Of a DNA stretch of 29,376 nt, positions 16,252 through 29,376 are shown one piece after another. A program made the translations under genes and the position numbers. The notes under the pieces were generated by a model. The model was not told the DNA's origin. It did not search any database and saw only the letters and a program-made list of their open reading frames with translations. Each line of letters begins with the position of its first letter. The first letter of the stretch is position 1. Origin of the DNA: a virus. The stretch lies in the IMG/VR virus record IMGVR_UViG_3300031857_024670, positions 1-29,376 of that record, one strand, 5' to 3'.

Positions 16252-16866
16252 ATGGGACTAGTAAAGAACCTTAAGGATTTCATGAAGATACACGAAGGAG
16301 AAAAGATCATCGTGTGCGGTTGTGGAACATCCCTTGAAAAACTTAGGAACCACCATGAAGAGTACATAACGATAGGTGTCAATGACGTTCCCGCCATGTT
16401 CGATCCTACTTATCTGTTAGTCACCGACCATCCGGGCAGGTTTTACGGTAAGCGAAAAGAGCTAGTTCAAAACTCTAGTGCAAAGTATCTTTTTACTTGC
16501 ACCAAGGGTTGGAGACACCCAAACCTAGTTCATTTTGAGCTTGGTTCCAAAGAGCTAAAGAGCCTAGATAGCGATTCTAGAATAGACCATTTTTTAAACT
16601 CACCATATGTTGCAGTAAGCCTAGCCTACAAGATGGGAGCAAAGCATATAGGTCTTCTTGGAGTAGACTTCACAAATGGCCACTTCTACAATCGAGACGA
16701 CGGTTCTCATCCATTGATAAAGGCGAATTACCTTAGGCGTCTAAATTCAGCATATCAAGTAATGGTCAACGAGTTAGCCAAAAGAGGAACTTCACTCTAT
16801 AACCTAAGCGACATCAGTAAGATTGAGATTCCAAAGATCTCTCTAGAAAAATTTAAAGAGCTATGA
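16252..16866 (+). CDS. Nucleotide-sugar or glycosyl transfer protein, DUF115/GT42-like N-terminus
   Basis: First gene of the glycan island, 204 aa from the ATG at 16252. An in-frame ATG at 16183 would overlap the divergent DnaJ start and add a hydrophobic, Lys-rich leader that looks non-coding, so I prefer the inner one. The core begins E-K-I-I-V-C-G-C-G-T-S-L-E-K-L (near 17-31), a Rossmann-like strand-loop like the G-x-G-P-S-L motif of DUF115 and GT42 (sialyltransferase) proteins. Y-I-T-I-G-V-N-D-V and Y-L-L-V-T-D-H-P follow, then I-G-L-L-G-V-D-F. It overlaps the NeuA-like gene by ATGA. A role in handling or transferring the activated sugar is plausible, but family membership is not firm. 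Confidence 0.7.
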   Translation: MGLVKNLKDFMKIHEGEKIIVCGCGTSLEKLRNHHEEYITIGVNDVPAMFDPTYLLVTDHPGRFYGKRKELVQNSSAKYLFTCTKGWRHPNLVHFELGSKELKSLDSDSRIDHFLNSPYVAVSLAYKMGAKHIGLLGVDFTNGHFYNRDDGSHPLIKANYLRRLNSAYQVMVNELAKRGTSLYNLSDISKIEIPKISLEKFKEL

Positions 16867-17501
16867 AGATAATAATCCCAGCTAGGGAAGGATCTAAAGG
16901 TTTTCCTCACAAGAACAGAAAACTCTTTAAGTATACAGTACAGTCTATTCCAGTAGCAGTTAGGGAAAACGTTTACGTGACTAGTGATGATACTAAGATA
17001 CTTAAGATGGCCAAAAATTCTGGCTTTAATTGTATAGAACGACCTGCAGACTTAGCACAAGACACGACCTCAATGAAAGAGGTGATCGTTCATGCCTTAA
17101 GCGAAATGAAGGTGGACGACAACGAGCTAGTAGCAGTACTGTATCTCACCTATCCTGAGAGAAGATGGATAGACTTGATGGATGCTGTTGCGTTTTACCT
17201 CATAATGGAACCCGCAATGCCAGTAAGCTCTCTTCTCTGTAAAAAGAAGGTAAAGAGCAACCCTTTTCTCTGCATGTACGATCTTGGACATAGAGGTAAA
17301 CAAATCATAAAACACGATCTATATCGTCGTCAAGACTATTTAGATTGCTTCGAGCTATCTCACTTCATCGTTTTGTTACGACCTGGGAACATAGATAACC
17401 TAAACAACAATCTCTATGATAGCGAAACCTTGTTTTGGGAGATTGAGGACAAAGTCGATGTCGACCATGAAAAAGATTTTTTAAAGATTAATGCGAACTG
17501 A
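16863..17501 (+). CDS. neuA: CMP-nonulosonate (sialate) cytidylyltransferase, NeuA-like
   Basis: The enzyme would activate a sialic-acid-type sugar with CTP to CMP-sugar. The diagnostic N-terminal motif is I-I-P-A-R-E-G-S-K-G-F-P-H-K-N (3-17), the CTP-binding loop of acylneuraminate cytidylyltransferases. V-T-S-D-D-T-K-I-L (39-47), E-R-P-A-D-L-A-Q-D (59-67) and the acidic E-I-E-D-K-V-D-V-D (near 193-201) are further family landmarks. The length, 212 aa, is slightly under the usual 220-230. The substrate cannot be fixed from sequence: sialic, legionaminic, pseudaminic or a related acid, or possibly a Kdo-type sugar. It overlaps the gene before by four bases and the gene after by eleven. With the NeuB-like synthase at 27821 it brackets the island. 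Confidence 0.88.
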   Translation: MKIIIPAREGSKGFPHKNRKLFKYTVQSIPVAVRENVYVTSDDTKILKMAKNSGFNCIERPADLAQDTTSMKEVIVHALSEMKVDDNELVAVLYLTYPERRWIDLMDAVAFYLIMEPAMPVSSLLCKKKVKSNPFLCMYDLGHRGKQIIKHDLYRRQDYLDCFELSHFIVLLRPGNIDNLNNNLYDSETLFWEIEDKVDVDHEKDFLKINAN

Positions 17502-19038
17502 TATAAGTGTAACTATAGAATTATCTGAAGATACTTCAATGCTGACTAAGGTCAGTTTAAAGTCTTTTATAGAACACAATAAATGGTTTAATGGAACAGT
17601 TTATCTTTTGACATTTACTGATCTTCCTATTAAAACCAAGACTCTATCTGAAATAAAAATGATTTATCCTCAAATCGAAGTATTGAACATTACTGACGAT
17701 AGGATAATAGCAAGAGCGATCTCTTCAATTAAATCAAATAGCAAGGAAGTTTTTTCGAGTCTGATCGACTGTTTAAAGTTAGGAGCTCTGTTAATAGATG
17801 GGAATGTTTTATACTTGTCACACAGGTCACTCTTTCTTTCTAGCGTTGAATTCATGTTAAGCGAACGCGAAATAATAGTCTCTCAAATATTGAATTCTGA
17901 TTCCTCCTCTATTTTTTACATGACCGATAACATAGACAAGTCTTCTATGTTAACTAACATTTGTAATTCTCTCATGATGGAAGATTCCTTTTTCTCAAAG
18001 AGAAAAATAGACTTAGCGTTCTCTACTGAATTTAAGAAAGCGTCTTCTATACAATTCATACCTGCATCTAAAGCATCAACTTCTTCCAATTATTCAGATC
18101 GATATTTTACAAAACTTAAAGCCAATTTAAGTGAACTTGCATGCCTTCATTTTGAAGAAAAGATGCTAAACAGTCCATTGCACACAAAAATAAACCAGTT
18201 ATGGTTACATAAGGCCAGAAACGTCAAGTTATTTACTAATAAACCTGCAAGCGTTGAGCACCGTAATGTCTTAACCAAGACGTCTAATCTAGAATACATA
18301 AAGTCTACTGTCTCTATCTCAGACGTTGAGAAAAACTTTAAAGTCTCAGTAATAATACCTGCATATAAAGCAGAAGCTTATATCGAAGAGTGTTTAGATT
18401 CAATAATAAGACAGACGACATCAGCCGAACTTGAAATTTTAATCGGTATTGATAACTGTGAATCTACTTTGAAAAGACTTAAACAAATAAAAAACAAATA
18501 CCCTAACCTTAGGGTATTTTATTCTAATAGTTCTTTGGGTGCATACGTCATGCGAAACACTCTTAGTGAAATGGTAAAACATGATCACATACTTTTCTTT
18601 GACGCTGACGATATCATGATTCCATCAATGATTTCATCAATCTTAAGAAAATACAAAAATTCAAGTCCAGTTAGATTCAAATACATCAACTTTAATCAGG
18701 GAGAAGATCCAATTAAGAGGATCTCCCCTCATCCTAAACCTTCACACGGTGTTTTCTTTATATCACGTAATCTATTCAATAGAATTGGAGGATTTCAAAA
18801 CTGGCCGTGTGGAGCAGACACTGAATTCATGAAAAGGTGCAGCGTCAATAAGATACACGACACAATAATAAACGCCCCTCTTTTCTACAGAAGAATTCAC
18901 TCAACTAGTCTGACTCAAAATCCAGAAACAGGTTATCGTTCTAATGTAAGGTCCCAGATAAACCTAAGAATAAAAAACATGATAGATTGGAGCATTCCTA
19001 TCCATAGAGTAACTTCAAAAATAAGTCAGATTCAATGA
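17491..19038 (+). CDS. Two-domain protein with C-terminal family 2 glycosyltransferase
   Basis: Residues about 283-500 are a GT2 (GT-A fold) domain: V-S-V-I-I-P-A-Y-K-A-E-A-Y-I-E-E (285-300) and the metal/nucleotide-sugar motif D-A-D-D at 371-374, then G-G-F-Q-N-W-P-C-G-A-D-T-E-F (near 434-447). Residues 1-280 are a separate domain with a nucleotide-fold-like start (I-S-V-T-I-E-L-S-E-D) and L-L-I-D-G-N-V-L-Y-L-S (100-110), faintly like GT8 enzymes but with no clear D-x-D, so it may be an inactive or unknown transferase-like domain. The GT2 domain is a close paralogue of the whole protein at 20370-21074. It overlaps NeuA by 11 bases and the next gene by ATGA. Confidence 0.88.
   Translation: MRTDISVTIELSEDTSMLTKVSLKSFIEHNKWFNGTVYLLTFTDLPIKTKTLSEIKMIYPQIEVLNITDDRIIARAISSIKSNSKEVFSSLIDCLKLGALLIDGNVLYLSHRSLFLSSVEFMLSEREIIVSQILNSDSSSIFYMTDNIDKSSMLTNICNSLMMEDSFFSKRKIDLAFSTEFKKASSIQFIPASKASTSSNYSDRYFTKLKANLSELACLHFEEKMLNSPLHTKINQLWLHKARNVKLFTNKPASVEHRNVLTKTSNLEYIKSTVSISDVEKNFKVSVIIPAYKAEAYIEECLDSIIRQTTSAELEILIGIDNCESTLKRLKQIKNKYPNLRVFYSNSSLGAYVMRNTLSEMVKHDHILFFDADDIMIPSMISSILRKYKNSSPVRFKYINFNQGEDPIKRISPHPKPSHGVFFISRNLFNRIGGFQNWPCGADTEFMKRCSVNKIHDTIINAPLFYRRIHSTSLTQNPETGYRSNVRSQINLRIKNMIDWSIPIHRVTSKISQIQ
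18496..18519 (+). other. Intragenic perfect hairpin followed by T-rich tract
   Basis: AAATACCCTAA and TTAGGGTATTT form an 11-bp perfect inverted repeat around CC, followed by TATTCTAAT. It lies inside the GT2 coding region (codons for K-Y-P-N-L-R-V-F-Y). The shape is terminator-like and it could cause partial termination or affect RNA processing. It may also be chance. Confidence 0.4.
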
Positions 19039-19622
19039 AACATTCAATAGTAACTAGGATAAATTTTACAGACCTTTCTCTAATGGGTGAATATTTAAAG
19101 ATCACCAAAGAGATACTCATACCTGCATTAAAGTCTCAAACAGTAAAGGCTTTTGAGTGGATAGTTCTCACAAATGTTGAAACACTAGACATATTGAAAT
19201 CTGAATTAGACTATCCATTCACTCCACTCTTTAGTAACCCTGAGTGTCACTCTTATCTAATCAAAAATAATATCAATATTCAGACTAGACATGACTGTGA
19301 CGATTATATGTCTCCTAACTACGTTGAGGAAATACAAAGGCTCTACTTACAAAACCGTAAAAGACATAAGACTTTTTTGATACAGGCACAACCGACACAA
19401 CTATTGTATCAAACCGGAGAAGAGATTGAGCTTAAACCTTATAGTAATCAAAGGTGCTCAATGTTTCTTTCTTTATGTCAAGAAAAAGTAGAAAATCACA
19501 TTTTTGAAAGAAAGCACATCCAGATGTATGAAATAACTAGCACAGTAATAACTATTCCGACTGGTTATGCTAAGTGGGTGATACACGGAAAAAACAGATC
19601 AGTTCTTGAAAAAAAGAAATAA
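19035..19622 (+). CDS. Putative glycosyltransferase, rhamnosyltransferase-like (GT-A), 195 aa
   Basis: Features point to a short GT-A transferase resembling the putative rhamnosyltransferase family (as I remember PF11316): I-L-I-P-A-L-K-S-Q-T-V-K-A-F-E-W-I-V-L-T-N (27-47) then T-R-H-D-C-D-D-Y-M-S (84-93), where D87-C-D89-D90 would be the metal/nucleotide-sugar motif. The C-terminal third has no recognisable signature and ends basic (L-E-K-K-K). It is shorter than typical members (about 250-300 aa), so it may be reduced. It overlaps the preceding gene by ATGA and is followed after two bases by another glycosyltransferase gene. Confidence 0.7.
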   Translation: MKHSIVTRINFTDLSLMGEYLKITKEILIPALKSQTVKAFEWIVLTNVETLDILKSELDYPFTPLFSNPECHSYLIKNNINIQTRHDCDDYMSPNYVEEIQRLYLQNRKRHKTFLIQAQPTQLLYQTGEEIELKPYSNQRCSMFLSLCQEKVENHIFERKHIQMYEITSTVITIPTGYAKWVIHGKNRSVLEKKK

Positions 19623-19624
19623 AA

Positions 19625-20389
19625 ATGGATTCTAAAAAACTAGACATATGTGTGGTTACATACAACCGATTAGAATATTTAAAGCTTTGCGTGTGGTCTA
19701 TACTTGCTTCTACTAAAGTAGACTATAGATTGTTTGTGATATCCGACAATTCTACTGATGGAACAAATGAATGGCTCCTTGAAATGAAAGATCTTGGGAA
19801 GATAGATGAAGTCATAATAAATCCTGAAAATTTGGGTAGTGCTGAGTCCTTTAACAAAGTAATAAGAGCAACTTCTTCAGAGTATTTTGTGATGACTTGT
19901 GATGACATGTGGTTTCATAGAGGCTGGGATCACGCATGTCTTAGAATACTAAAAGAGAAACAAGATTGCGGATTAGTCACCTTTTTCAATTTTCCAATAA
20001 ATCCAAACGATACTCAACTTAAAGTGATAAATGACCACACGTACTTTAGACAAAGCACAGGCCTAGGTTCTACTATGATTAATAGAGAGCTTTTTGATGC
20101 GACCGGCGGATTCTTTTTACCAGAAGGTTTAAAGATGGGATATTTTGCTAGGGAGTTTTGTAAAAAAACAGCAGGCACTAAGTTAAGCAGAAAAAAACAG
20201 TATCTGACCAATCCTTTCTATTCTGAACAAATGGATCGACACAACCCTGGAAGCACAGAAAAGCTTCCTCCCAAGTTGTCACAAGAACACTTTTATACAG
20301 AATACAATAATAGGCGAGGATCCGAAAAGCGGAAGTATCTAGCCAACACAAATTTTCCTGTCAAATCAAATGAAAAACCTAAAAAATAA
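19625..20389 (+). CDS. Family 2 glycosyltransferase, 254 aa
   Basis: The GT2 pattern is clear: L-D-I-C-V-V-T-Y-N-R-L-E-Y-L (6-19), V-I-S-D-N-S-T-D-G-T (38-47), P-E-N-L-G-S-A-E-S-F-N (67-77) and the acidic pair T-C-D-D-M-W (91-96), which would bind the metal and nucleotide-sugar. G-L-G-S-T-M-I and G-G-F-F follow in the acceptor region. No membrane span is present, so a soluble enzyme acting at the cytoplasmic face or on a soluble acceptor. Donor and acceptor are unknown. The C-terminal tail is Lys-rich. Its end overlaps the next transferase gene by 20 bases in another frame. Confidence 0.9.
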   Translation: MDSKKLDICVVTYNRLEYLKLCVWSILASTKVDYRLFVISDNSTDGTNEWLLEMKDLGKIDEVIINPENLGSAESFNKVIRATSSEYFVMTCDDMWFHRGWDHACLRILKEKQDCGLVTFFNFPINPNDTQLKVINDHTYFRQSTGLGSTMINRELFDATGGFFLPEGLKMGYFAREFCKKTAGTKLSRKKQYLTNPFYSEQMDRHNPGSTEKLPPKLSQEHFYTEYNNRRGSEKRKYLANTNFPVKSNEKPKK

Positions 20390-21074
20390 AATAGGAGTCA
20401 GCGTAATAATCTCAGCTCATTCAGCTGAGTCTTATATTGAGGAGTGTGTGACCTCAATCGCAGCTCAGACCTATTTTAAAGATTTTAAAGACTATGAGAT
20501 ATTAGTTGGAGTAGATGGCTGTTTGTCCACATTAAACGAGATGATCAGGCTTAAAGAAACTATCAAGAACTTAAAAGTGTTGTGGTTTCCAGTTAATTCA
20601 GGCCCATATTTAGTCTTCAACACCCTAGTATCAGTGTGTAACTTTGAAGCAGTCTCAGTTTTTGGCGCAGACGACATAATGGATAAAACTTTTGTTGAAC
20701 ACAATATAAGTCTCTTAAAAAACAAGTCTTGCGTTTTTGCAAGAGGCGCCAATTTTAATCATCCAAACAAGGAAGAAATCACTAGAGAATACAATCCAGA
20801 CGGGGTGATCACATTCAACCGACTTGACTTTTTGTCGGTGAACGGCTTTGAAAAGTGGAGATGCGGAGCGGACAGCGACCTTAAAGTCAGATTCAAGATA
20901 GCAGGTTTAGACTTGATCAATTCTAAGTCTACCACCTTTTTACGTAGGGTTCATGAAAACAGTCTGACTTCCAGTCGAAGCAAGTATGGATTTGGTGGAG
21001 AATACCGAAAAAAAATACAAGCAATAGTCCGATCTAGAACCAACGCCAAAATAAAACTACAGTGTTCTTTCTAA
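20370..21074 (+). CDS. Family 2 glycosyltransferase, paralogue of the 17491-19038 C-terminal domain
   Basis: A 234-aa single-domain GT2 protein. V-S-V-I-I-S-A-H-S-A-E-S-Y-I-E-E-C (10-26) and V-F-G-A-D-D-I-M (97-104) give the nucleotide-sugar site. Many segments match the C-terminal domain of the 515-aa protein: Y-I-E-E-C, E-I-L-V-G-V-D, N-G-F-E-K-W-R-C-G-A-D-S-D versus G-G-F-Q-N-W-P-C-G-A-D-T-E, R-R-V-H-E-N-S-L-T versus R-R-I-H-S-T-S-L-T. The two probably arose by duplication. The metal motif is G-A-D-D here rather than D-A-D-D, which may alter donor use. It starts inside the end of the previous gene. Confidence 0.88.
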   Translation: MKNLKNKIGVSVIISAHSAESYIEECVTSIAAQTYFKDFKDYEILVGVDGCLSTLNEMIRLKETIKNLKVLWFPVNSGPYLVFNTLVSVCNFEAVSVFGADDIMDKTFVEHNISLLKNKSCVFARGANFNHPNKEEITREYNPDGVITFNRLDFLSVNGFEKWRCGADSDLKVRFKIAGLDLINSKSTTFLRRVHENSLTSSRSKYGFGGEYRKKIQAIVRSRTNAKIKLQCSF

Positions 21075-21095
21075 CTATCAAATAATTTGACATAT

Positions 21096-21818
21096 ATGAA
21101 GCCTAAACTAATATTTTTAACTTGTACTTTTAATAGACCTAATATTACTAAAATTTTTAGAGATAATCTACTAGATATACAAAATAAGACCAAAGATTTA
21201 TTTGAATTTGTTAATATCGTAATCGATAGTGATAATAGTAATTATGACATATTTAAAGATCATAGCTCCTTCATTTATCATAATCATGACAATTTACCAG
21301 TATCAAATAAATGGAATTATGGTAGTTCTCTATGTAGCTCTATAGACTTTGATTATATCATAATAATTGGCTCAGATGATATATTAGATGAATCAATATT
21401 GATTAAATATTATGAATATATGATAGCTGGCTATGACTTTATCGGAATATTAGATCTATATGTTTACAATATTCTTACTGATAACTTATATTATTGGTCA
21501 GGTTATTCTGAGCCTATTCGAAAAGGCGAAACTATTGGATTAGGTCGATGTTTATCTAAACAGCTTGTTAAAAAATTAAACTATAATTTATGGCACAATA
21601 ATAAAAATAAAGGCCTTGATTCTAGTATGAATACTAAAATTAACAATTTGTCAAATATCAAAAAAATAACTTTCTATTCTAAAGACATTGGGATCTGCTG
21701 CGATATTAAAAGTGAAACTAATATCACTTCATTTTCTAAACTAAGTAAAAAAATGGATAAAGTTAATCAAACTGCTACTAAATATAAAAAAATAAAATCA
21801 ATGATTTATGAAAATTAA
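21096..21818 (+). CDS. Glycosyltransferase-like protein (GT-A), AT-rich gene
   Basis: The 240-aa product starts M-K-P-K-L-I-F-L-T-C-T-F-N-R-P-N, a GT-A opening strand with an N-R-P loop, and has I-I-I-I-G-S-D-D-I-L-D at 88-98 as the likely metal/nucleotide-sugar motif. I choose the ATG at 21096 over an in-frame TTG at 21087 because the ATG lies exactly before the conserved first strand. Base composition is noticeably more AT-rich than flanking genes (13 G/C of 60 at 21181-21240, against 23 of 60 at 16861-16920), a sign of separate origin. It overlaps the next gene by 11 bases. Acceptor and donor unknown. Confidence 0.82.
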   Translation: MKPKLIFLTCTFNRPNITKIFRDNLLDIQNKTKDLFEFVNIVIDSDNSNYDIFKDHSSFIYHNHDNLPVSNKWNYGSSLCSSIDFDYIIIIGSDDILDESILIKYYEYMIAGYDFIGILDLYVYNILTDNLYYWSGYSEPIRKGETIGLGRCLSKQLVKKLNYNLWHNNKNKGLDSSMNTKINNLSNIKKITFYSKDIGICCDIKSETNITSFSKLSKKMDKVNQTATKYKKIKSMIYEN

Positions 21819-22596
21819 TCAAGTCTATATTTCAGAAGGCTTAGAAAGTAATTTCGGCGACGATTTTAGGAATTATTGGAACTTAAATAAGTATTTTAAC
21901 CCAAATCTTCCATCCATATTTTTAGGAATATACACTGATCTAGACCGTCGTATTTTAACTGAACATCAAGCTACTTCAATTATTATTTTTGGCGGTTCTG
22001 ATTTAACTCGTGTTAAATCTATTAAGCTAGTTAAATCATTAGTTGATTCGGGTAAGTCATTTACCCTTGCGTATCCCGGTCATTTTTCAAAATACCTATA
22101 TGACAATAAAATTAAGCACAAACAATTACATTTAGCAGTTAAAGATTATTCAAGTTATAAACCGTCTCCGTTAGGTGATAAAATATATGTTTATCGCGGA
22201 ATAAACGGAGGTAAAGATGACTATTATGGATGGAATGAGATTGCTACGATCTTATCTAAAACATTTGGATCTAGTTCAATACTTTATACGAATAACCAGC
22301 CTCATGAATTATTGATTAGTAATTTTTATGAAAGGTGCTTTGTATACATTAAACCTAATCCCAGTGGAGGCTGTACAAGTATGTTTGAATTAGGCATGAT
22401 GGGCCGCACCACAATAGGTAAAGGACATAGTAATCTTGGAAACTTTATTGAATATTCTAACACTAATGATTTAATAGATTTAATTAAAATAGAATCACAG
22501 TTTATAGGTAAAGTAAGAGAAGACGTTTCACTAAATACGCGTAATTCATTCATTGGACCTGAATGGCTAGATTTAGAATTTTGGAAAAATAATTAA
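21808..22596 (+). CDS. GT-B-type glycosyltransferase-like protein, 262 aa
   Basis: The protein looks like a short group 1 (GT4-like, GT-B fold) transferase. Its C-terminal half has Y-I-K-P-N-P-S-G-G-C-T-S-M-F-E-L-G-M-M-G-R (about 185-205), resembling the donor-binding G-G-x-x-x-x-x-x-E-A-M-A-x-G block with Glu in place, followed by Y-S-N-T-N-D-L-I-D-L-I. The N-terminal half has S-I-I-I-F-G-G-S-D-L-T and F-T-L-A-Y-P-G-H-F-S-K strands. It is shorter than standard GT4 enzymes (about 350-400 aa). The gene is AT-rich like its neighbours. Four bases separate it from the WbqC-like gene. Family assignment is moderate. Confidence 0.72.
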   Translation: MKINQVYISEGLESNFGDDFRNYWNLNKYFNPNLPSIFLGIYTDLDRRILTEHQATSIIIFGGSDLTRVKSIKLVKSLVDSGKSFTLAYPGHFSKYLYDNKIKHKQLHLAVKDYSSYKPSPLGDKIYVYRGINGGKDDYYGWNEIATILSKTFGSSSILYTNNQPHELLISNFYERCFVYIKPNPSGGCTSMFELGMMGRTTIGKGHSNLGNFIEYSNTNDLIDLIKIESQFIGKVREDVSLNTRNSFIGPEWLDLEFWKNN

Positions 22597-22600
22597 AGAT

Positions 22601-23287
22601 ATGAATAACGTTGCTATCTGTCAGTCTAATTATATTCCATGGAGAGGATATTTTGATCTAATTGCAAGTGCTGACGTATTTGTTATCTATGATGAAGTCC
22701 AATATACTAAAAATGACTGGCGAAATCGCAACTTAATTAAAACAGCAACTGGTCTATCGTGGCTCACTGTTCCAGTAAGAAGAGAATCTATACATCAAAA
22801 AATAAATGAGACTTTAACTATGTCGACTGGTTGGGAAAGAAAGCACATAACTGCACTAACATTAAATTATTCTAAGTCTCCATTTTTTCAAACATATAAA
22901 GATGAAATATTTAAAATATACGAAAATTTTACTTCTTTATCTAACCTGAATGTCAATATGATAAAAAAAATATGTGAGATTTTAATGATAGATACTAAAA
23001 TAATAGATTCATCTGACTTGTGTTTAAGCGGCGATCGTAATTCAAAGTTAATTGATGCTTGCATAAAATTAAGTGCAACCACCTACATATCTGGTCCATC
23101 TGCTTCTTGTTATTTAGATACCGCCGCTTTTAACTTAAATAATATAAATGTTAACTGGATAGATTATTCAGGTTACTTAGAATATCCGCAAAGATTCGGC
23201 ACATTTATCGGAAATGTCAGCATATTAGATTTAATATTTAATGTTGGTCCAAATTCTAAAAATTATTTAAAATATACAACGCCATGA
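22601..23287 (+). CDS. WbqC-family protein of surface-glycan clusters
   Basis: The 228-aa product carries the WbqC-like signature: V-A-I-C-Q-S-N-Y-I-P-W-R-G-Y-F-D-L-I (4-21), V-I-Y-D-E-V-Q-Y-T-K-N-D-W-R-N-R-N (28-44), and a late Y-I-S-G-P-S-A-x-x-Y-L-D segment (about 164-175) followed by Y-P-Q-R-F-G-T-F. Members occur in bacterial O-antigen and capsule loci and their reaction is, as far as I know, not settled; acyl or amino-acid decoration of sugars has been considered. It overlaps the epimerase gene by ATGA, so the two are translated in step and may modify the same sugar. The length is normal for the family. Confidence 0.9.
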   Translation: MNNVAICQSNYIPWRGYFDLIASADVFVIYDEVQYTKNDWRNRNLIKTATGLSWLTVPVRRESIHQKINETLTMSTGWERKHITALTLNYSKSPFFQTYKDEIFKIYENFTSLSNLNVNMIKKICEILMIDTKIIDSSDLCLSGDRNSKLIDACIKLSATTYISGPSASCYLDTAAFNLNNINVNWIDYSGYLEYPQRFGTFIGNVSILDLIFNVGPNSKNYLKYTTP

Positions 23288-24321
23288 AAAAAGATAAAAT
23301 AATTATTTTTGGGGCTTCAGGTTTTATAGGAACATATTTGATTGACTCATTATTAGACAAAAACTATCACGTATTGGCAATAGATTCAGACGATTCGCTA
23401 TTTGAATATTACTCAAATAAAAAAATAGATTGTTTGCGACTAGATTTACGAGATTCTGACAAGTTTAATGAAATTGATAGTACAAATTGTACAACAGTTA
23501 TACAACTAGCTGCTCTCCAGCCTTCCAATTATAACCCAATGAAACATTCACCTAAGGATTACCTTGAGATCAATGCAGTCGGTACTCTTAACGTTTTAGA
23601 ATTTTGTAAAGACCGAAATATTCCTAAGATAATTTATGCAATGTCACATAGGAACACGTCTGGACATTGGGGAAAGATGAGCAAAGTAAGAGAGTCAGAT
23701 GGCATCTCACAAGAATACTTAGGTGAATACTCGATGTTTAGTATAGCTGAAAGTTGCGCTCACGAATGTGTAAAACATTACAGTGAAAGCTATAATATTA
23801 ACTCAATAGTTTTTAGGCTCCCTCCTGTTTATGGATACGGTCCTCACTTAGATATATTCAAAGGAGGAACACCGATACGGACTGGTTTTCAAACCTTTAT
23901 AGATCGTGCAATTTTAGGAAAAGCAATAGAGGTTTGGGGAAATCCAAACATAGGAAGAGATATCATATATGTTAAGGACGTTGTTTCAGCATTTATTTGT
24001 GCAATTACTTCAGATTCTGCAAATGGGCTCTATAATATATCTTCAAGTTATTCTCTAACTCTCTTAGAAGAAATTAAGACTATCATTGAGGTGTTTAACC
24101 AGACGAATAACGTTGAGTTATTATTCTTTCCCGAAAAAACAAATTTTATAGACTGCTTTGTGTATGACAACAGTAAAGCAAAATTAGAACTAAATTGGGC
24201 TCCAAAGTATAACTTTAAAAGTATGCTAATTGACTACAAAAAAGAAAAAGAATCTAATAAATTCAGTTTCTTAATAGAAAAAAGAAAAAAAATGTTTGAT
24301 GAATATGGAAAAAGGATATGA
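23284..24321 (+). CDS. Extended SDR NAD-dependent epimerase/dehydratase-like protein with altered active site
   Basis: The 345-aa product is a nucleotide-sugar epimerase/dehydratase-type SDR. The NAD loop is G-A-S-G-F-I-G (10-16), followed by the V-L-A-I-D acidic strand end (30-34), V-I-Q-L-A-A (72-77), R-L-P-P-V-Y-G-Y-G-P (178-187) and I-Y-V-K-D-V (228-233), all family landmarks. The expected catalytic Y-x-x-x-K is not seen: aligning backward from the R-L-P-P-V-Y-G block, the Tyr position is Phe152 and the Lys position Glu156 (M-F-S-I-A-E-S); Tyr149 is followed by Ser at +4. It may be inactive, binding-only, or use other residues. It overlaps WbqC by ATGA and its end overlaps the acyltransferase. 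Confidence 0.87.
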   Translation: MKKDKIIIFGASGFIGTYLIDSLLDKNYHVLAIDSDDSLFEYYSNKKIDCLRLDLRDSDKFNEIDSTNCTTVIQLAALQPSNYNPMKHSPKDYLEINAVGTLNVLEFCKDRNIPKIIYAMSHRNTSGHWGKMSKVRESDGISQEYLGEYSMFSIAESCAHECVKHYSESYNINSIVFRLPPVYGYGPHLDIFKGGTPIRTGFQTFIDRAILGKAIEVWGNPNIGRDIIYVKDVVSAFICAITSDSANGLYNISSSYSLTLLEEIKTIIEVFNQTNNVELLFFPEKTNFIDCFVYDNSKAKLELNWAPKYNFKSMLIDYKKEKESNKFSFLIEKRKKMFDEYGKRI

Positions 24322-24844
24322 ATTAGATGGAATTGAATTCATGGGCGAAAATGTAAAGGATAAATTAGCATCATGTGGCACAAATGTTAAAATTTATCCT
24401 ATGGCAAAAATAGTATCTCCTCATCTTGTTGAATTAGCAGATGACTGTAGAATTGGAGACTTTGTGTTTATCTTAGGCGGCACTGGTGTTAAAATCGGTA
24501 AAAATACTGATGTTCAGCCTCATACTACCTTTTGGGGAGGAGGCCGCACTATAATCGGAGATAGAGTATCTACTGGCCCAGGAACAGTATTTTTATCTGC
24601 TACGTATTCTCACGCGGAGGGTCTAAAAATGGTTGATGGGTTATCTGAAGGTTCAACTGATACTTTAGGTGGTGTTTTGGAAGTAGGTGATGATGTATAC
24701 ATCGGTGCAAAGAGTGTAATAATGCCAGTTAAAATAGGTGAAGGCGCAGTAATAGGTGCAAATAGCTTCGTTAACAAAGATCTAGATCCTTGGGGCATTT
24801 ATGTAGGCAGCCCAGCTAAAAAAATAGGTGAAAGAAAAAAATAA
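24299..24844 (+). CDS. Left-handed beta-helix (hexapeptide) acyltransferase
   Basis: From about residue 35 the sequence shows the (I/V/L)-G-x-x-x-x hexapeptide rhythm: I-G-D-F-V-F, I-G-K-N-T-D-V, I-G-D-R-V-S, V-G-D-D-V-Y-I-G-A-K-S-V-I, I-G-E-G-A-V-I-G-A-N-S-F-V, ending Y-V-G-S-P-A-K-K-I-G. This is a LbH O- or N-acyltransferase that would transfer acetyl or another acyl group from a CoA donor to a sugar. Y-S-H-A-E-G near residue 100 provides a His in the position often catalytic. I choose ATG 24299, which lies inside the end of the epimerase gene; ATG 24305 is also possible and an in-frame TTG at 24296 is less likely. It may add the N-acyl group of the nonulosonic acid or decorate the finished glycan. 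Confidence 0.9.
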   Translation: MNMEKGYELDGIEFMGENVKDKLASCGTNVKIYPMAKIVSPHLVELADDCRIGDFVFILGGTGVKIGKNTDVQPHTTFWGGGRTIIGDRVSTGPGTVFLSATYSHAEGLKMVDGLSEGSTDTLGGVLEVGDDVYIGAKSVIMPVKIGEGAVIGANSFVNKDLDPWGIYVGSPAKKIGERKK

Positions 24845-24852
24845 TAAAAGTT

Positions 24853-25488
24853 ATGCCGATTAAATTACACAATCCTTATAAGATAGTTCAAATGTTCGAA
24901 GAGGAACTTGCTGAGTATACTGGTTCTAAGTATGCAGTAGCAGTTGATAGCTGTACAAGCGCTCTATTCTTGTGCTGCACTTACCTAAAGGTAAAAGAGG
25001 TAACTATCCCATCACACACATATCTTTCCGTTCCTATGAGCATACTACAAGCCGGTGGTGAAGTCGTATTTGACTGTAGTGTTCAAGCTAATCAGTGGAC
25101 TGGTGCATATCGACTTTCTCCCTATCCGATATATGATGCAGCGAAGAGATTTACTTCAAATATGTACGTTCCAGATAGTTTTATGTGTCTTTCATTTCAC
25201 ATAAAGAAGAAGCTTGGAATAGGAAAAGGCGGAGCAATATTAACTGATGATCCAGACGCAGTTGCGTGGTTTAAAAAGGCAAGGTATGAAGGTAGAAGCG
25301 AAAAGTTCTATAAAGAAGACGATGTTACAAGTATTGGTTGGAATATGTACATGACTCCACAAGAAGCTGCCCATGGATTAGCTTTAATGCAAAACTATCC
25401 AGAGCATAATAGTGATTTAGAGGAAGTCAACGGTTATCGTGATCTTACCGAATTCACAATATTTAAAAATAACAAAAGAATATTATGA
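24853..25488 (+). CDS. Short DegT/DnrJ/EryC1-type sugar aminotransferase
   Basis: A PLP-dependent sugar aminotransferase of the DegT family, but only 211 aa against the usual 360-400. The N-terminal catalytic half is recognisable: Y-T-G-S-K-Y-A-V-A-V-D-S-C-T-S-A-L (22-38), V-T-I-P-S-H-T-Y-L-S (50-59), the PLP-contacting Asp95 in Y-D-A-A-K, and S-F-H-I-K-K-K-L-G-I-G-K-G-G (114-127) with the Schiff-base Lys among 118-120. The C-terminal small domain, which closes over the sugar, is largely absent, and the frame ends normally without visible frameshift remnants (the dehydrogenase ATG overlaps its stop). It may be a reduced functional enzyme or a non-catalytic relative. It would put an amino group on a keto-sugar. 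Confidence 0.85.
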   Translation: MPIKLHNPYKIVQMFEEELAEYTGSKYAVAVDSCTSALFLCCTYLKVKEVTIPSHTYLSVPMSILQAGGEVVFDCSVQANQWTGAYRLSPYPIYDAAKRFTSNMYVPDSFMCLSFHIKKKLGIGKGGAILTDDPDAVAWFKKARYEGRSEKFYKEDDVTSIGWNMYMTPQEAAHGLALMQNYPEHNSDLEEVNGYRDLTEFTIFKNNKRIL

Positions 25489-26303
25489 AAATTTCAGTAA
25501 TTGGACTCGGCTTTGTCGGGTCAGCGATGTTTGAGAGCTTTAAACAAAACGGGGTGACCGACCTAACCGGTTATGACAAATACAAAAAAATAGGTTCTCT
25601 AGACGCTTGTCTAGCCTCAGAAATAATCTTCTTAGCCTTACCCACTCCATACCAAGAGAGCAAGGCAGAATACGACAAATCAGCGATCGAAGAGACCCTA
25701 TTGTACTTATCAGAGAATGATTTTTCTGGTCTAGTTGTGATCAAAAGCACAGTAGAGCCTGAGACGACTGTTAACTTCTCAAATAAGTTTGAAAACCTTT
25801 CGTTACTTCACAATCCTGAGTTCTTAACTGAACGTACTGCCTTAGCCGATTTTAATAATCAGAAGCATGTGGTCCTAGGCGCCACTTCGACTTGTGGAAA
25901 TACTCAACTTAAGGACGCAATCAAATTTTACTCAAAATTTTATCCAAATGCTAAGATCTCTATCTGTAACTCTACAGAATCTGAAAGCATGAAGATATTT
26001 GCAAATTCTTTCTACTCAGTAAAGGTTCAGTTCTTTAATGAGCTCTACTTGCTTTGTGAAAAGTCAGGTTGTGACTATGCTACCGTAAAGTCACTGATGT
26101 TAGAAAACGGTTGGGTAAACCCAATGCACACCCAGGTCCCAGGACCGGATGGGCTCTTAAGTTATGGAGGTTCGTGTTTTCCAAAGGACACAAACGCTCT
26201 TCTCAAATACATGAAAAAGTATGATACTCCATCCAAGGTCTTGGAGGCAACTATACTAGAAAGAAATGAAATCAGACCTGACAAAACCAACATCATAGAC
26301 TAA
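25485..26303 (+). CDS. Short UDP-glucose/GDP-mannose dehydrogenase-like protein
   Basis: Residues match the first two domains of the nucleotide-sugar dehydrogenases that make uronic acids with NAD. The NAD loop is G-L-G-F-V-G (7-12); H-N-P-E-F-L-T-E-R at 109-117, Lys170 and Asn174 in S-M-K-I-F-A-N-S, and the catalytic Cys231 in G-G-S-C-F-P-K-D are all present. The total of 272 aa is well below the usual 390-430, and the C-terminal UDP-binding domain is missing. All visible catalytic residues are intact, so the oxidation chemistry could survive with an altered substrate. The ATG overlaps the aminotransferase stop (ATGA), and its own stop shares a base with the next start. Confidence 0.88.
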   Translation: MKISVIGLGFVGSAMFESFKQNGVTDLTGYDKYKKIGSLDACLASEIIFLALPTPYQESKAEYDKSAIEETLLYLSENDFSGLVVIKSTVEPETTVNFSNKFENLSLLHNPEFLTERTALADFNNQKHVVLGATSTCGNTQLKDAIKFYSKFYPNAKISICNSTESESMKIFANSFYSVKVQFFNELYLLCEKSGCDYATVKSLMLENGWVNPMHTQVPGPDGLLSYGGSCFPKDTNALLKYMKKYDTPSKVLEATILERNEIRPDKTNIID

Positions 26304-27130
26304 TGAAACTTGGAGTATCGTACATAGTGTTTGATGGAGTAGAGCTCCTAGAACATTCAATCAAACAGATAAGAAAGCACGTAGACTATGTGCAAGTAAT
26401 CTATCAGTCTACCTCATGGTTTGGTCACCAGATCAAGAACGAAGACCTAATTACTTTGAACTCCTTAAAATTAAAGGGCCTAGTCGACGAACTTACTAAG
26501 TTTTCTGACTTCACGCCTTTAAAGGACACCTTAGCAAACTCAATAGCTAAATCTAAAGTCTATGAAAAGTCCAAGAGAGAGCTTGGTTTAAAGAGCGCCC
26601 TAAAGAAAGGATGTACTCACTATTTGTGTATGGATGTTGATGAATTTTACATAGAAGACGAGTTTGCAAGAGCTAAGAATAAGATCGAAGAGAACGATTA
26701 TGGTCTTACTGCAGTACGATTCATAAATTACGTAAATATTCCTACTCTACACAGAGGCTACGACCCATCTAGAGTCCCTTTTATCTGTAAGATAAGCAAT
26801 TCGTCTATGATGACAAGTCGATTCTTTGTAAAATGTGATCCTACTAGGGGAATAGCATCAAAGGTAGAAACTACACACGAATTTGATACAGAGTCTATAA
26901 CCATGCACCATATGGAGTCAGTAAGAAAGGACTTAAAGACTAAATATGAGGCAACTACTCGTGCAATATTTAAGAGGACCGACATGAAAACCTTACTTGA
27001 AAACATAAAAAAAGTAAGTCACACTAGACCTGAATTAGATTTCAATAAGATCATATTTCCAGCACTAGGCAAAATAAGGCTTAAGTCTTGTGATAACATA
27101 TTTGAAATACCTTATGAAAATTGGAAATAA
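26303..27130 (+). CDS. Putative glycosyltransferase with D-V-D motif, 275 aa
   Basis: The product begins K-L-G-V-S-Y-I-V-F-D-G-V-E-L-L-E-H-S-I (2-20), a GT-A-like first strand and helix, and has Y-L-C-M-D-V-D-E-F-Y at 107-116 with Asp111 and Asp113 as a D-x-D metal site. This layout resembles GT2/GT92-type proteins ('DGVELLE ... D-x-D-E-F'). The second half (S-R-F-F-V-K-C, M-H-H-M-E-S-V-R-K-D) could supply the acceptor site; the His pair would fit a late metal ligand. Donor and acceptor unknown. It shares a base with the dehydrogenase stop (TAATG) and is followed by another transferase after ten bases. Confidence 0.75.
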   Translation: MKLGVSYIVFDGVELLEHSIKQIRKHVDYVQVIYQSTSWFGHQIKNEDLITLNSLKLKGLVDELTKFSDFTPLKDTLANSIAKSKVYEKSKRELGLKSALKKGCTHYLCMDVDEFYIEDEFARAKNKIEENDYGLTAVRFINYVNIPTLHRGYDPSRVPFICKISNSSMMTSRFFVKCDPTRGIASKVETTHEFDTESITMHHMESVRKDLKTKYEATTRAIFKRTDMKTLLENIKKVSHTRPELDFNKIIFPALGKIRLKSCDNIFEIPYENWK

Positions 27131-27140
27131 TCGATGAATC

Positions 27141-27824
27141 ATGTCTAAAATTGTCTTAGAATTCACAACAACTGCTTGTAATAGACCGTCTGTTTTAAAT
27201 TCAACATATTCTTCATATTCAAAAAATCTTAAAGGAGTAGATTTTGAAAAGAGTAGGCTCTATTTAAACGTTGACCCTTCCCCAGACTCCACTGACATTG
27301 ATAAAGTTGAGGAAGTTGCTAAGCGATACTTCGGAGAAGTTATAGTAAACTATCCAACTACTTCTAACTTCTCAGCCGCTGCTTTCTGGTGTTTTTCTCA
27401 AGTAAAAGGGGACATGTTCTTTCATTTAGAAGACGATTGGCACTTGACTCGAGAAGTTGACATACACCGAATGATTTCAAAATTAGGAAATTCTAATCTT
27501 CAGTGTATCCTTAATAAGAAACGAACACCGGTTACCTCAAGAGAGCGTGGCGAACCTAGTTTTGTTCCATCTCTAATATCTACTAGATACTGGCAAAAAT
27601 ACTTAGTCGGCTTCGATTTAAGTAGCAATCCTGAATACCAAATGAAAATTAAGTTTAGAAACAAGTCTACTGCTCTTTTTGAGAACAGATCAGTCGACTA
27701 TGACTCTTCTAAGGAACTATCAAAAGACATAGGTCGTTTGTGGTTGACTAAAAATGGCTTAGCTAGAAATTACAAACAAGGAACCTCATGGTCTCCTTGG
27801 ATAAATTGGAAAAAAAGAAAATGA
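27141..27824 (+). CDS. Putative glycosyltransferase (GT-A), 227 aa
   Basis: A compact GT-A-like protein: L-E-F-T-T-T-A-C-N-R-P-S-V-L-N (6-20) has the N-R-P loop common to this island's transferases, Y-L-N-V-D-P-S-P-D (41-49) is the second strand, and F-F-H-L-E-D-D-W-H-L (93-102) has the acidic E-D-D motif. The C-terminus is basic and aromatic (W-S-P-W-I-N-W-K-K-R-K), possibly for membrane-surface or acceptor contact. It ends in an ATGA overlap with the NeuB-like synthase. No specific family recognised beyond the fold. Confidence 0.75.
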   Translation: MSKIVLEFTTTACNRPSVLNSTYSSYSKNLKGVDFEKSRLYLNVDPSPDSTDIDKVEEVAKRYFGEVIVNYPTTSNFSAAAFWCFSQVKGDMFFHLEDDWHLTREVDIHRMISKLGNSNLQCILNKKRTPVTSRERGEPSFVPSLISTRYWQKYLVGFDLSSNPEYQMKIKFRNKSTALFENRSVDYDSSKELSKDIGRLWLTKNGLARNYKQGTSWSPWINWKKRK

Positions 27825-28705
27825 AAACACAAATCATTGCTGAAATAGGTCTTAACTATGCTTACGGTAAGGACTCTCTTCTTTTCATGAATAACATTAA
27901 AAGACTCATTGACGTTGCTGTGATTGCTGGATGTGATTACGTTAAGTTTCAAAAAAGAAACCCAGACACGTGTGTGCCTGAGAAAGAAAAGAACAAACCC
28001 AAGTCTGTTCCTTGGAGAAAAGAAGAAACGACTTATCTTCAATATAAAAAGGACATAGAGCTTTGGGAAAGGGAATACGATGAAGTAGACGATTATTGTA
28101 GAGAAAAGGGAATCTCATGGTTCGCATCAGTCTGGGACAAAGAGTCAGTCGATTTCATGAGAAGGTATCACAGTAGGCTACCTAACGGAAAACATGGAGT
28201 TATGGTAAAGATTCCATCTGCCCTAATAACTGACCTTGATCTTCTTACTTATGCAAACGAATGCTGTGATGAAGTTGTGATCTCAACAGGAATGAGTAAT
28301 CAAGCTGAGATTGATATTGCAATAATGACGGCTCAACCTGGAGTCGTGTTTCATACCAATTCCACCTATCCTGCACCAACTCACGAATTAAAGCTAGATT
28401 ATTTGACTTACCTTAAACACATAGCTAGCGAGTTTGACCGACCTTTTGAGATAGGTTACTCTGGTCATGAATTTGGCCTTACTACAACGATCGCGGCGTC
28501 AGTAATAGGAGCTACTTGGATAGAAAGACACATAACACTAGACCGAACTCTTTGGGGTAGCGACCAGATGGCCTCAGTTGAACCTCAAGGTCTCATTAAA
28601 TTGGTAAAGAGCATAAGGGATATCGAGTCCTCTCGTGGAGGCTATGAGGCTAGGAAGGTTTTACCTTCTGAAATGGAAAAAAGAAAAACGCTTAGAGGAA
28701 AATAA
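27821..28705 (+). CDS. neuB: Sialic-acid-type synthase, NeuB/SpsE-like, without SAF domain
   Basis: The enzyme would condense phosphoenolpyruvate with an N-acyl-hexosamine to give a nonulosonic acid. Markers are I-I-A-E-I-G-L-N-Y (5-13), A-G-C-D-Y-V-K-F-Q-K (36-45), V-V-I-S-T-G-M-S-N (about 155-163), H-T-N-S-T-Y-P-A-P-T (179-188), I-G-Y-S-G-H-E-F-G (211-219) and E-R-H-I-T-L-D-R (237-244), all in NeuB order. The start at 27821 overlaps the previous stop (ATGA) and puts the first conserved strand at residue 4; an upstream in-frame ATG at 27788 would add a Lys-rich leader and is less likely. At 294 aa it stops after the TIM barrel and lacks the C-terminal antifreeze-like (SAF) domain found in most NeuB enzymes of about 345 aa. 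Confidence 0.93.
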   Translation: MKTQIIAEIGLNYAYGKDSLLFMNNIKRLIDVAVIAGCDYVKFQKRNPDTCVPEKEKNKPKSVPWRKEETTYLQYKKDIELWEREYDEVDDYCREKGISWFASVWDKESVDFMRRYHSRLPNGKHGVMVKIPSALITDLDLLTYANECCDEVVISTGMSNQAEIDIAIMTAQPGVVFHTNSTYPAPTHELKLDYLTYLKHIASEFDRPFEIGYSGHEFGLTTTIAASVIGATWIERHITLDRTLWGSDQMASVEPQGLIKLVKSIRDIESSRGGYEARKVLPSEMEKRKTLRGK

Positions 28706-28715
28706 TAAGAATCAA

Positions 28716-29021
28716 ATGTCCAAGAAGATAACGATTAAGAAGGTTCTTCAATTCATAGAAGGAAACGCAAAGATGTTCGGCGATTACATCGATCTTCTGC
28801 CTCATCATGAAAAAGAGCAGGTGATATATCGAAGCTGGGTCTGTCGCGATGAATGCATGGAAGTAGGTTACTGCAAACACTGTGGCTGTTCTGTTCCAGG
28901 CAAGCTATACGTTAAGGAGTCCTGTAACGACGGAGAGCTCTTCCCTGACATGATGAATGAGTCAGCTTGGGAAGCATACAAAGAGGAAAAAAAAATAAAC
29001 ATGGATGAGATACTTCATTGA
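28716..29021 (+). CDS. Small Cys-rich (zinc-ribbon-like) protein, 101 aa
   Basis: From the ATG at 28716 (M-S-K-K-I-T-I-K-K-V) the product has a helical N-terminal half and a Cys-rich centre: C-R-D-E-C then Y-C-K-H-C-G-C-S-V-P-G-K and E-S-C-N-D-G (about residues 45-75). The Cys spacing suggests one metal-binding knuckle. F-P-D-M-M follows and the C-terminus is charged. An upstream in-frame ATG at 28635 lies inside the NeuB gene and is less likely. It sits ten bases after NeuB and overlaps the HAD gene by 17 bases. I recall similar uncharacterised phage proteins but no function; it may be unrelated to glycan synthesis. Confidence 0.75.
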   Translation: MSKKITIKKVLQFIEGNAKMFGDYIDLLPHHEKEQVIYRSWVCRDECMEVGYCKHCGCSVPGKLYVKESCNDGELFPDMMNESAWEAYKEEKKINMDEILH

Positions 29022-29304
29022 CATTGACGACACCATACTTGAGCTAATCAATAAACAGGATTATGCCTCTGCCGTTGGGATACCTGAAGCGATAGCTAAG
29101 GTAAACTCTCTCTATGACGAGGGTCACACAATAATCCTATGGACTGCTCGAGGAACCGTTACAGGCAAGGATTGGTCGGAACTCACAAAGTCACAGCTTC
29201 TTCACTATGGGGTAAAGCATCACGAATTACGATTCGGTAAACCTGCATATGACGTCTTTATTGACGATAAGGCAATAAACGCTAGAGAATGGCTGAAGAG
29301 TTAA
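29005..29304 (+). CDS. Minimal HAD-superfamily phosphatase, 99 aa
   Basis: A very small HAD hydrolase with all four motifs: D-I-D-D-T (6-10, nucleophile Asp6 and acid/base Asp8), W-T-A-R-G-T (46-51, Thr47), Lys79 in G-K-P-A-Y-D, and V-F-I-D-D-K (84-89, metal Asp87/88). It lacks any large cap domain (C0 type), which favours larger or protein-bound substrates or assembly into oligomers. Similar short HAD proteins occur in capsule and nucleotide-sugar loci. A natural role here is removal of a sugar phosphate, for example the 9-phosphate formed by phosphate-using NeuB variants, but that is inference. Its start lies inside the end of the Cys-rich gene and its end overlaps the next ORF. Confidence 0.88.
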   Translation: MRYFIDIDDTILELINKQDYASAVGIPEAIAKVNSLYDEGHTIILWTARGTVTGKDWSELTKSQLLHYGVKHHELRFGKPAYDVFIDDKAINAREWLKS

Positions 29305-29376
29305 GAGTACTAGTATTAGGAAACGATCCACAAATAAATCAAATAGACTTTTCAAAGTTAGATCGTAACGTAATCA
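29289..29376 (+). CDS. 5' end of a putative GT42/DUF115-like gene
   Basis: The ATG at 29289 opens a frame that runs off the right edge (29 codons visible). It begins M-A-E-E-L-R-V-L-V-L-G-N-D-P-Q-I-N-Q-I-D. The V-L-G-N-D-P-x-I-N-x-I-D-F-S-K-L pattern resembles the opening strand and loop of GT42 sialyltransferases and related DUF115-like proteins (G-N-G-P-S-L). It overlaps the HAD gene by 16 bases, so the island continues beyond the window. Too little is visible for a firm call. Confidence 0.55.
   Translation, partial: MAEELRVLVLGNDPQINQIDFSKLDRNVI

Follow-up and report, generated by a model that had tools for sequence, protein, structure and literature searches.

Maf enzymes glycosylate serine and threonine residues of flagellin from cytidine monophosphate (CMP)-activated sugars, and their genes accompany NeuA/NeuB-type synthesis genes (PMC3426422, PMC11339370). 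The pathway to the sialic acid KDN (2-keto-3-deoxynononic acid), described in Bacteroides (BT1713-1715) and Prymnesium parvum, is composed of a 9-phosphate synthase, a HAD phosphatase and a CMP-sugar synthetase, and requires only mannose-6-phosphate and phosphoenolpyruvate (PEP) (PMC6200933). Glycosyltransferases are known from phages, which in some cases glycosylate their own virions. For Stenotrophomonas phage DLP4, a single open reading frame with a NeuB-like domain has been reported in the lysis module. T4-like phages of cyanobacteria, such as P-SSM2, carry glycan or lipopolysaccharide gene clusters within a T4-like genome, and we know of no NeuB-NeuA-sialyltransferase core in them. Here we analyzed the IMG/VR record IMGVR_UViG_3300031857_024670 in its entirety (29,376 bases, hereafter the window), the rest of the phage genome lying outside view. 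An earlier note, made from the letters alone, had proposed that in this record a nonulosonic-acid-type glycan island adjoins the capsid genes of a T4-like phage. Our results make it probable that the phage possesses in this island a nonulosonic-acid glycosylation module of its own, in which a constant core is combined with exchangeable cargo and which resides beside the capsid genes of huge T4-related phages that probably infect Bacteroidota. A more far-reaching version, put forward tentatively, is that a complete and self-contained KDN-like pathway running via a 9-phosphate, together with two sialyltransferase-fold enzymes, directly O-glycosylates the phage's own capsid, that swapping of cassettes within constant ends produces capsid serotypes, and that some sub-lineages retain a dead but selected synthase.

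The rarity of such a pathway in phages, assumed in the earlier note, is borne out by database searches. Among 50,697 phage records NeuB had three matches and NeuA two, and no match to the Maf-like or the terminal transferase was found (tblastn). A 'phage' record named Moritella viscosa with a match to NeuB looks like host DNA, because nonulosonate clusters have been reported in this species (PMC7371886). No comparable system was found in the open-access literature on phage NeuB, nonulosonic acid, sialyltransferases and virion glycosylation. As far as searched, neither the core nor a sialic-acid-like sugar made and attached by a phage itself has been described; phage glycan clusters and virion glycosylation are already known.

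The constant core and its predicted pathway

The island is an unbroken run of overlapping plus-strand genes from 16183/16252 to 29304 (open reading frame listing). The tight single-strand packing seen earlier stands, whereas the count of about 17 genes has to be corrected to 18 complete genes and the 5′ part of a 19th, the record ending inside the operon. Judging from alignments of homologues, the first gene probably begins at 16252 (the second Met, as in several relatives), NeuB at 27821 and p13610 near 28716. Loci of relatives (denoted by L numbers) were gathered via NeuB (51), the capsid protein (80) and the first gene (45), and their genes were mapped with profiles. The order of genes is constant: DnaJ (divergently oriented), Maf-like gene, NeuA, variable genes, often GTf and GTg, NeuB, p13610, HAD and CstII-like gene. 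The same arrangement beside the capsid genes, for which the earlier note had suggested a neighbourhood search, recurs in about 32 distinct contigs, so that the association of capsid and island is not due to chance. The constant core consists of the following genes, the others being exchangeable cargo apart from the semi-conserved GTf and GTg:

16252..16866, plus strand: predicted stand-alone transferase of Maf/DUF115-GT42 fold (AlphaFold2 (AF2) fold; phrog_4603, alpha-2,3-sialyltransferase, E 3e-6)
16863..17501, plus strand: NeuA, compact CMP-nonulosonate synthetase (PF02348, E 1.9e-8; PDB 1eyr, E 5e-8; motifs)
27821..28705, plus strand: NeuB-family nonulosonate synthase, SAF-less (PF03102, E 9.9e-60; catalytic residues intact)
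28716..29021, plus strand: p13610, small Cys-rich Zn-ribbon-like boundary protein (phrog_13610, E 9e-19)
29005..29304, plus strand: capless HAD phosphatase, EcbF/BcbF-like (motifs DIDDT, TARG, K and DD; PDB 9iqw, E 1e-14)
29289..29376, plus strand: second transferase, predicted CstII/GT42 fold, first 29 residues (translation; complete homologues in about 40 loci)

NeuA and NeuB, on which the earlier note had built its case, both fall inside the sialate families in HMM searches, with scores above the Pfam cut-offs. NeuB matches PF03102 with 202 bits (gathering cut-off 22.1) over profile positions 1-238 of 241, and residues E8, K42, K130, H216 and H237 (numbered from the 27821 start) are invariant in an alignment of 29 phage sequences. 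All 29 stop where canonical enzymes enter the SAF domain (the window's protein ends in ..RKTLRGK), and no SAF/antifreeze-like domain, stand-alone ones included, was found in the records of 22 relatives. Bacterial NeuBs related to the phage type are mostly 285-300 residues long; the motifs KFQKRxPxxCVP and TPWG are common to phage and bacterial SAF-less enzymes, unlike a SAF-bearing NeuB. Judged by these sequence features, the window NeuB is a genuine PF03102 member of a SAF-less subfamily. NeuA matches CTP_transf_3 (PF02348) with 34.8 bits (cut-off 22.6), and its alignment displays the signature motifs IIPARxGSKG..KN and DVDxxxDF.

The HAD phosphatase also holds up: its four HAD motifs can be discerned by eye, and its closest PDB sequence, 9iqw, is annotated as 'Capsule biosynthesis protein'. 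HAD lies at most 411 bp from NeuB in 29 of 46 distinct loci, mostly downstream and sometimes upstream. After NeuB, L033 carries a fusion of NeuA and HAD, the HAD part of which is 59% identical to the window HAD, and the NeuA half of which matches solved CMP-sialate synthetases (9t4z, E 4e-39; 1qwj, E 2e-30). In the Bacteroidota members tested, the gene immediately ahead of the SAF-less NeuB encodes a HAD that, among NCBIfam models, best fits the Bacteroides KDN-9-phosphate phosphatase (161 bits against a cut-off of 180); in several further phyla this place is taken by NeuA fused to a KdsC-type HAD. The ties between SAF-less NeuBs and 9-phosphatases, taken together with the NeuA-HAD fusion of L033, suggest that the phage likely employs a route from hexose-6-phosphate to nonulosonate-9-phosphate. 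The predicted set of a 9-phosphate synthase, a HAD phosphatase and a CMP-sugar synthetase is that of the KDN pathway, and the bacterial neighbours of SAF-less NeuBs match the phosphatase model from BT1713-1715. Unlike in that pathway, the phage HAD is smaller and EcbF/BcbF-like.

The earlier note had found precursor enzymes to be missing, and indeed neither NeuC nor pseudaminic (Pse) or legionaminic (Leg) acid dehydratases could be recognized. Using the PF02350 profile, no NeuC-type hydrolysing epimerase was found in 22 relatives; three matches, considered as a possible NeuC route to N-acetylmannosamine, are all WecB-type according to NCBIfam. The window's short-chain dehydrogenase/reductase (SDR) reaches 86 of 475 bits for LegB, and its DegT aminotransferase 58 of 424 bits for PseC. 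Since the KDN route runs on mannose-6-phosphate and PEP, the absence of NeuC would be no gap if the phage takes such a route, and what appeared to be missing may be answered by the 9-phosphate route with its conserved HAD. Ordinary host mannose-6-phosphate, or a similar hexose-6-phosphate, could be the sole sugar precursor. The use of host precursors, as suggested previously, is likely. In L062 (208-kb phage contig G004, 39063-43040), PseB/FnlA-like and WecB-like enzymes are encoded near NeuB, as in synthesis of the UDP-N-acetylfucosamine type.

The genes bracketing the island were not recognized by the earlier note as encoding sialyltransferase-fold enzymes. The AF2 model of the first gene product (mean predicted local distance difference test score, pLDDT, 88.7) has Maf 5mu5 as its best match (Z 14.9 over 186 residues, root-mean-square deviation 3.4), followed by archaeal HPPK (Z 12.1) and CstII (Z 11.2), with unrelated folds scoring 4.6 or less. 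Its score against PF01973 (Maf) is 23.7 bits, below the cut-off of 34.6, and phmmer found no match among PDB sequences. For the terminal gene, the homologue from L002 was modeled (pLDDT 92.7). All 12 Foldseek matches of this model below E 1e-3 are GT42 sialyltransferases, and it superimposes on CstII with Z 12.9 over 193-195 of its 203 residues. CstII is also the top, if weak, PDB match of the terminal-gene profile (E 0.27, N-terminal motif); no Pfam or NCBIfam match was found for this gene, the informative signal coming from fold comparison only. A single 669-residue frame in L057 (10608-12617) joins NeuA to two terminal-type GT42-fold-like domains, and this fusion of a CMP-sugar synthetase with transferase-like domains supports a shared pathway. 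According to the models, both bracketing genes encode sialyltransferase-fold enzymes that presumably act as transferases. The first gene product shares its core fold with Maf flagellin transferases (Magnetospirillum 5mu5, Aeromonas Maf1, Clostridium CbMaf), but is about 204-227 residues long compared to 632, lacks the other domains of Maf, and is encoded next to a capsid gene, with no flagellin. Likewise, the terminal protein has the fold of Campylobacter CstI/CstII, but its sequence identity to GT42 sialyltransferases is about 14% and its sequence does not by itself assign it to the family. Weak profile matches had suggested a second NeuA after HAD; alignment identified this as a separate GT42-fold protein, the false signal arising from the presence of the L057 fusion among the NeuA training sequences.

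We propose that SAF-less NeuB would join PEP and a host hexose-6-phosphate, most likely mannose-6-phosphate; here the enzyme class follows from the family, and the phosphorylated substrate is suggested by the neighbours and the fusion. HAD would then strip the 9-phosphate to give a free nonulosonate, with KDN as the leading candidate, and NeuA, consistent with its family and motifs, would form the CMP-sugar. The Maf-like and CstII-like enzymes, given their predicted folds, would transfer the sugar, and about eight soluble glycosyltransferases and the sugar-modifying enzymes of the cargo may build and vary the remaining glycan. The most likely acceptor would be a protein of the virion, to which the sugar would be added in the cytoplasm in the way Maf modifies flagellin; the location of the island, its soluble enzymes, the missing lipid-carrier machinery and the parallel with Maf all point in this direction. 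If true, the minimal set for direct protein nonulosonylation would be NeuB, HAD, NeuA and a Maf-like transferase, and the widespread SAF-less NeuB subfamily of bacteria and phages would be assigned a likely substrate class.

Several observations weigh against this reconstruction. The phage HAD is EcbF/BcbF-like rather than KdsC-like, with weak scores to EcbF/BcbF capsule phosphatases, and in L048 and L031 HAD is absent from the sequence at hand. L151 encodes NeuA and the transferase, yet its NeuB is degenerate. SAF-bearing NeuB relatives, such as human NANS, can also take phosphorylated substrates, so that the lack of SAF by itself proves nothing. The Maf-like fold is akin to that of HPPK, a fold does not by itself reveal function, and the first gene product is devoid of Maf's N- and C-terminal regions. 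Neither the sugar, nor enzyme activity, nor a glycoprotein has been observed, and the 29-kb window is a fragment, leaving genes elsewhere in the genome unseen. In addition, NeuB scores 173.8 bits against the N-acetylneuraminate (Neu5Ac) synthase TIGR03569 (equivalog cut-off 399.65) and 120.3 bits against PseI TIGR03586 (340.25), and NeuA 51.3 bits against its best NCBIfam match PseF (205.7). As the scores fall short of equivalog level for Neu5Ac, Pse and Leg enzymes alike, family assignment by itself does not identify the sugar. The nonulosonate might be Neu5Ac-, legionaminic- or pseudaminic-like and derive from a non-phosphorylated host precursor, HAD serving some other role. This we regard as rather unlikely. 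TIGR03569 is the best NCBIfam match for NeuB as PseF is for NeuA, both below cut-off, and LegB and PseC/LegC are the best matches of SDR and DegT, respectively; yet most NeuB loci are without SDR and DegT, the NeuC-type epimerase is lacking as described above, and both the bacterial ties to 9-phosphatases and the fusion of HAD to NeuA beside NeuB in L033 fit a 9-phosphate intermediate better.

Possible acceptor of the proposed glycan

The earlier note had left open whether the glycan is destined for the virion, the host surface or DNA. Neither the initiating phosphoglycosyl transferase (PF02397) nor a Wzx-type flippase (PF01943) was found in the records of 24 relatives, including contigs of 190-380 kb, with positive controls. 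Island proteins have no strongly hydrophobic segment, except for a borderline N-terminal one in SDR. The missing families and the scarcity of clear membrane segments together favour a soluble cytoplasmic acceptor. By analogy, the acceptor might be a virion protein, for which we see about even chances; the guess is prompted by the adjoining capsid operon and by the fact that Maf modifies protein. It has to be said against it that it draws on position and analogy.

Alternatively, the island could alter the host surface (O-antigen, capsule or S-layer), for instance to block superinfection, by using lipid carriers and transporters of the host. In bacteria, nonulosonate clusters are mostly devoted to surface polysaccharides or flagella, O-antigen loci typically contain WbqC, DegT, nucleotide-sugar dehydrogenase and rhamnosyltransferase-like genes, and prophage-encoded nonulosonate-modifying enzymes that alter the host capsule are known (PMC12053666, PMC6586298). 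Set against the missing flippase and initiating transferase, the near absence of hydrophobic segments and the conserved position beside capsid genes, these parallels leave modification of the host surface improbable, and of the three destinations named earlier the virion is favoured. The glycan might also be placed on hypermodified bases of phage DNA or on some other target inside the cell, for example enzymes of phage or host, as DNA is often the target of phage glycosyltransferases, the island enzymes look soluble and a DNA role was proposed for the core glycosyltransferases of moraphages (PMC12619734). Yet the window shows no base-modifying enzyme (relatives were not searched for one), and the best match of the transferase is Maf, a family of protein O-glycosyltransferases. 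Nor, to our knowledge, does any sialyltransferase-fold enzyme act on DNA, and we view such a target as highly doubtful. Modification of a virion protein, if true, would mean that phage particles bear self-made acidic sugars with serotype-like variation, similar to bacterial surface serotypes.

Loss of the core and exchange of cargo among relatives

We considered 65 distinct capsid loci, each with enough sequence beyond DnaJ. The first gene is present in 32 of them, 31 also having NeuA. Twelve retain only a NeuB-like remnant, without NeuA and the transferase, three have p13610 only, and the remaining 18, which represent a distant capsid clade (62-64% identity), have no island gene. p13610 stays at the island boundary even in the otherwise empty loci L094, L113 and L138. 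The remnants examined in seven contigs (L067, 6119-6907; L069; L073; L074; L078; L081; L092) are 253-263 residues long and no longer have the Glu, Lys and His residues of catalysis. In the tree they fall within the phage NeuBs (enclosing group supported at 98/98, with long branches), and their ratio of nonsynonymous to synonymous substitution rates (dN/dS) is about 0.1, at least between close pairs. Owing to this ratio and the nesting, the remnants look like selected pseudoenzymes and not decaying genes. Five remnant-bearing records, reaching 176 kb in length, contain no NeuA, and distant-clade records of 250-271 kb have neither NeuA nor NeuB. The series from full module through dead NeuB to empty locus makes the function testable by comparison.

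The genes between the core ends are as follows:

17491..19038, plus strand: GT2 glycosyltransferase (PF00535, E 3e-19)
19035..19622, plus strand: rhamnosyltransferase-like protein, Rhamno_transf (PF11316, E 5e-8)
19625..20389, plus strand: GT2 (PF00535, E 3e-20)
20370..21074, plus strand: GT2 (PF00535, E 2e-10)
21087..21818, plus strand: GT2-like, assigned by eye (no Pfam/NCBIfam match; 90% nucleotide identity to L023)
21808..22596, plus strand: GT-B-like, assigned by eye (no Pfam/NCBIfam match; conserved in relatives)
22601..23287, plus strand: WbqC family (PF08889, E 4e-73)
23284..24321, plus strand: extended SDR/epimerase-like (PF01370, E 1e-38; best NCBIfam match LegB)
24296..24844, plus strand: hexapeptide acyltransferase (PF00132, E 7e-15)
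24853..25488, plus strand: miniature DegT aminotransferase, 211 residues (PF01041, E 6e-25; pyridoxal phosphate lysine motif SFHIKK)
25485..26303, plus strand: miniature nucleotide-sugar dehydrogenase (UGD), 272 residues (PF03721, UDPG_MGDP_dh, E 2e-18; PF00984)
26303..27130, plus strand: GTf, semi-conserved, glycosyltransferase-like by eye (no library match; in about 20 NeuB loci)
27141..27824, plus strand: GTg, semi-conserved, glycosyltransferase-like by eye (no Pfam match)

Pfam profiles identified WbqC, SDR, acyltransferase, aminotransferase and sugar dehydrogenase as named in the earlier note, as well as GT2 and rhamnosyltransferase-like genes among its transferase-like proteins. Its placement of the former five within the sialate set could not be upheld: only some relatives carry them, and as variable cargo they are not necessarily part of the nonulosonic route. 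The variable middle ranges from zero to about 10 kb. In L027 the Maf-like gene, NeuA and NeuB directly adjoin one another, as do NeuA and NeuB in L025, where the Maf-like match is weaker. Compared with L006/L007, nucleotide identity is 90-96% in the WbqC-SDR-DegT stretch and 93-95% in GT2a/RhaT, but 77-80% in NeuA and NeuB and 76-80% with GTf included. In L023, one glycosyltransferase is 90% identical to that of the window and NeuB just 66%. Such mosaic identity reveals that cargo is swapped between related phages, in a manner that resembles cassette exchange in bacterial surface-polysaccharide loci.

In SDR (23284-24321), YSMFS replaces the YxxxK motif, with Ser in place of lysine, and this change is conserved in the close relatives L006, L007 and L054; the protein might differ from ordinary dehydratases and epimerases. 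DegT and the dehydrogenase, which has no C-terminal domain, keep similar lengths in relatives, and the phage sugar enzymes seem trimmed to their cores. L186 and L191, contigs filed as SAR202 and Thermoplasmatales, encode a Maf-like protein, NeuA and a short NeuB close to the phage type, and are possibly misbinned viral contigs or cases of gene exchange.

Capsid block and phage lineage

The capsid block that the earlier note placed beside the island is confirmed and includes a gp23-like head protein, a prohead protease, DnaJ and both subunits of topoisomerase II:

11507..13144, minus strand: major capsid protein, T4 gp23 family, the locus anchor (phrog_138, E 1e-33)
13173..15161, minus strand: prohead protease of S77/S80 type (PF03420, E 1e-10)
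15214..16191, minus strand: DnaJ-like chaperone, divergent island-boundary gene (PF00226, E 8e-27; position conserved)

The label 'T4-like' fits the gp23-type capsid protein, but by this protein the closest phages are huge ones with genomes of 460-640 kb and the Lak phages rather than Straboviridae. One IMG/VR contig has a 100% identical capsid protein and many further contigs are at 70-94%; a DNA-level search with the window found no near relative among annotated phages. None of 23 genes checked is preceded by a Shine-Dalgarno-like motif, which, together with the relatives, suggests a Bacteroidota host. A promoter scan gave a signal near background. By published description, moraphages are similarly large, freshwater, T4-related, DnaJ-bearing phages of Bacteroidota and resemble the present phage also in several core glycosyltransferases, of which they have four orthogroups; unlike here, the published text contains no mention of NeuB, sialic or neuraminic (PMC12619734). 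The DnaJ-like gene always sits between the prohead protease and the island, and diverges faster than the adjacent capsid protein gene (66% versus 90% nucleotide identity to L053). It possibly encodes a capsid-folding chaperone.

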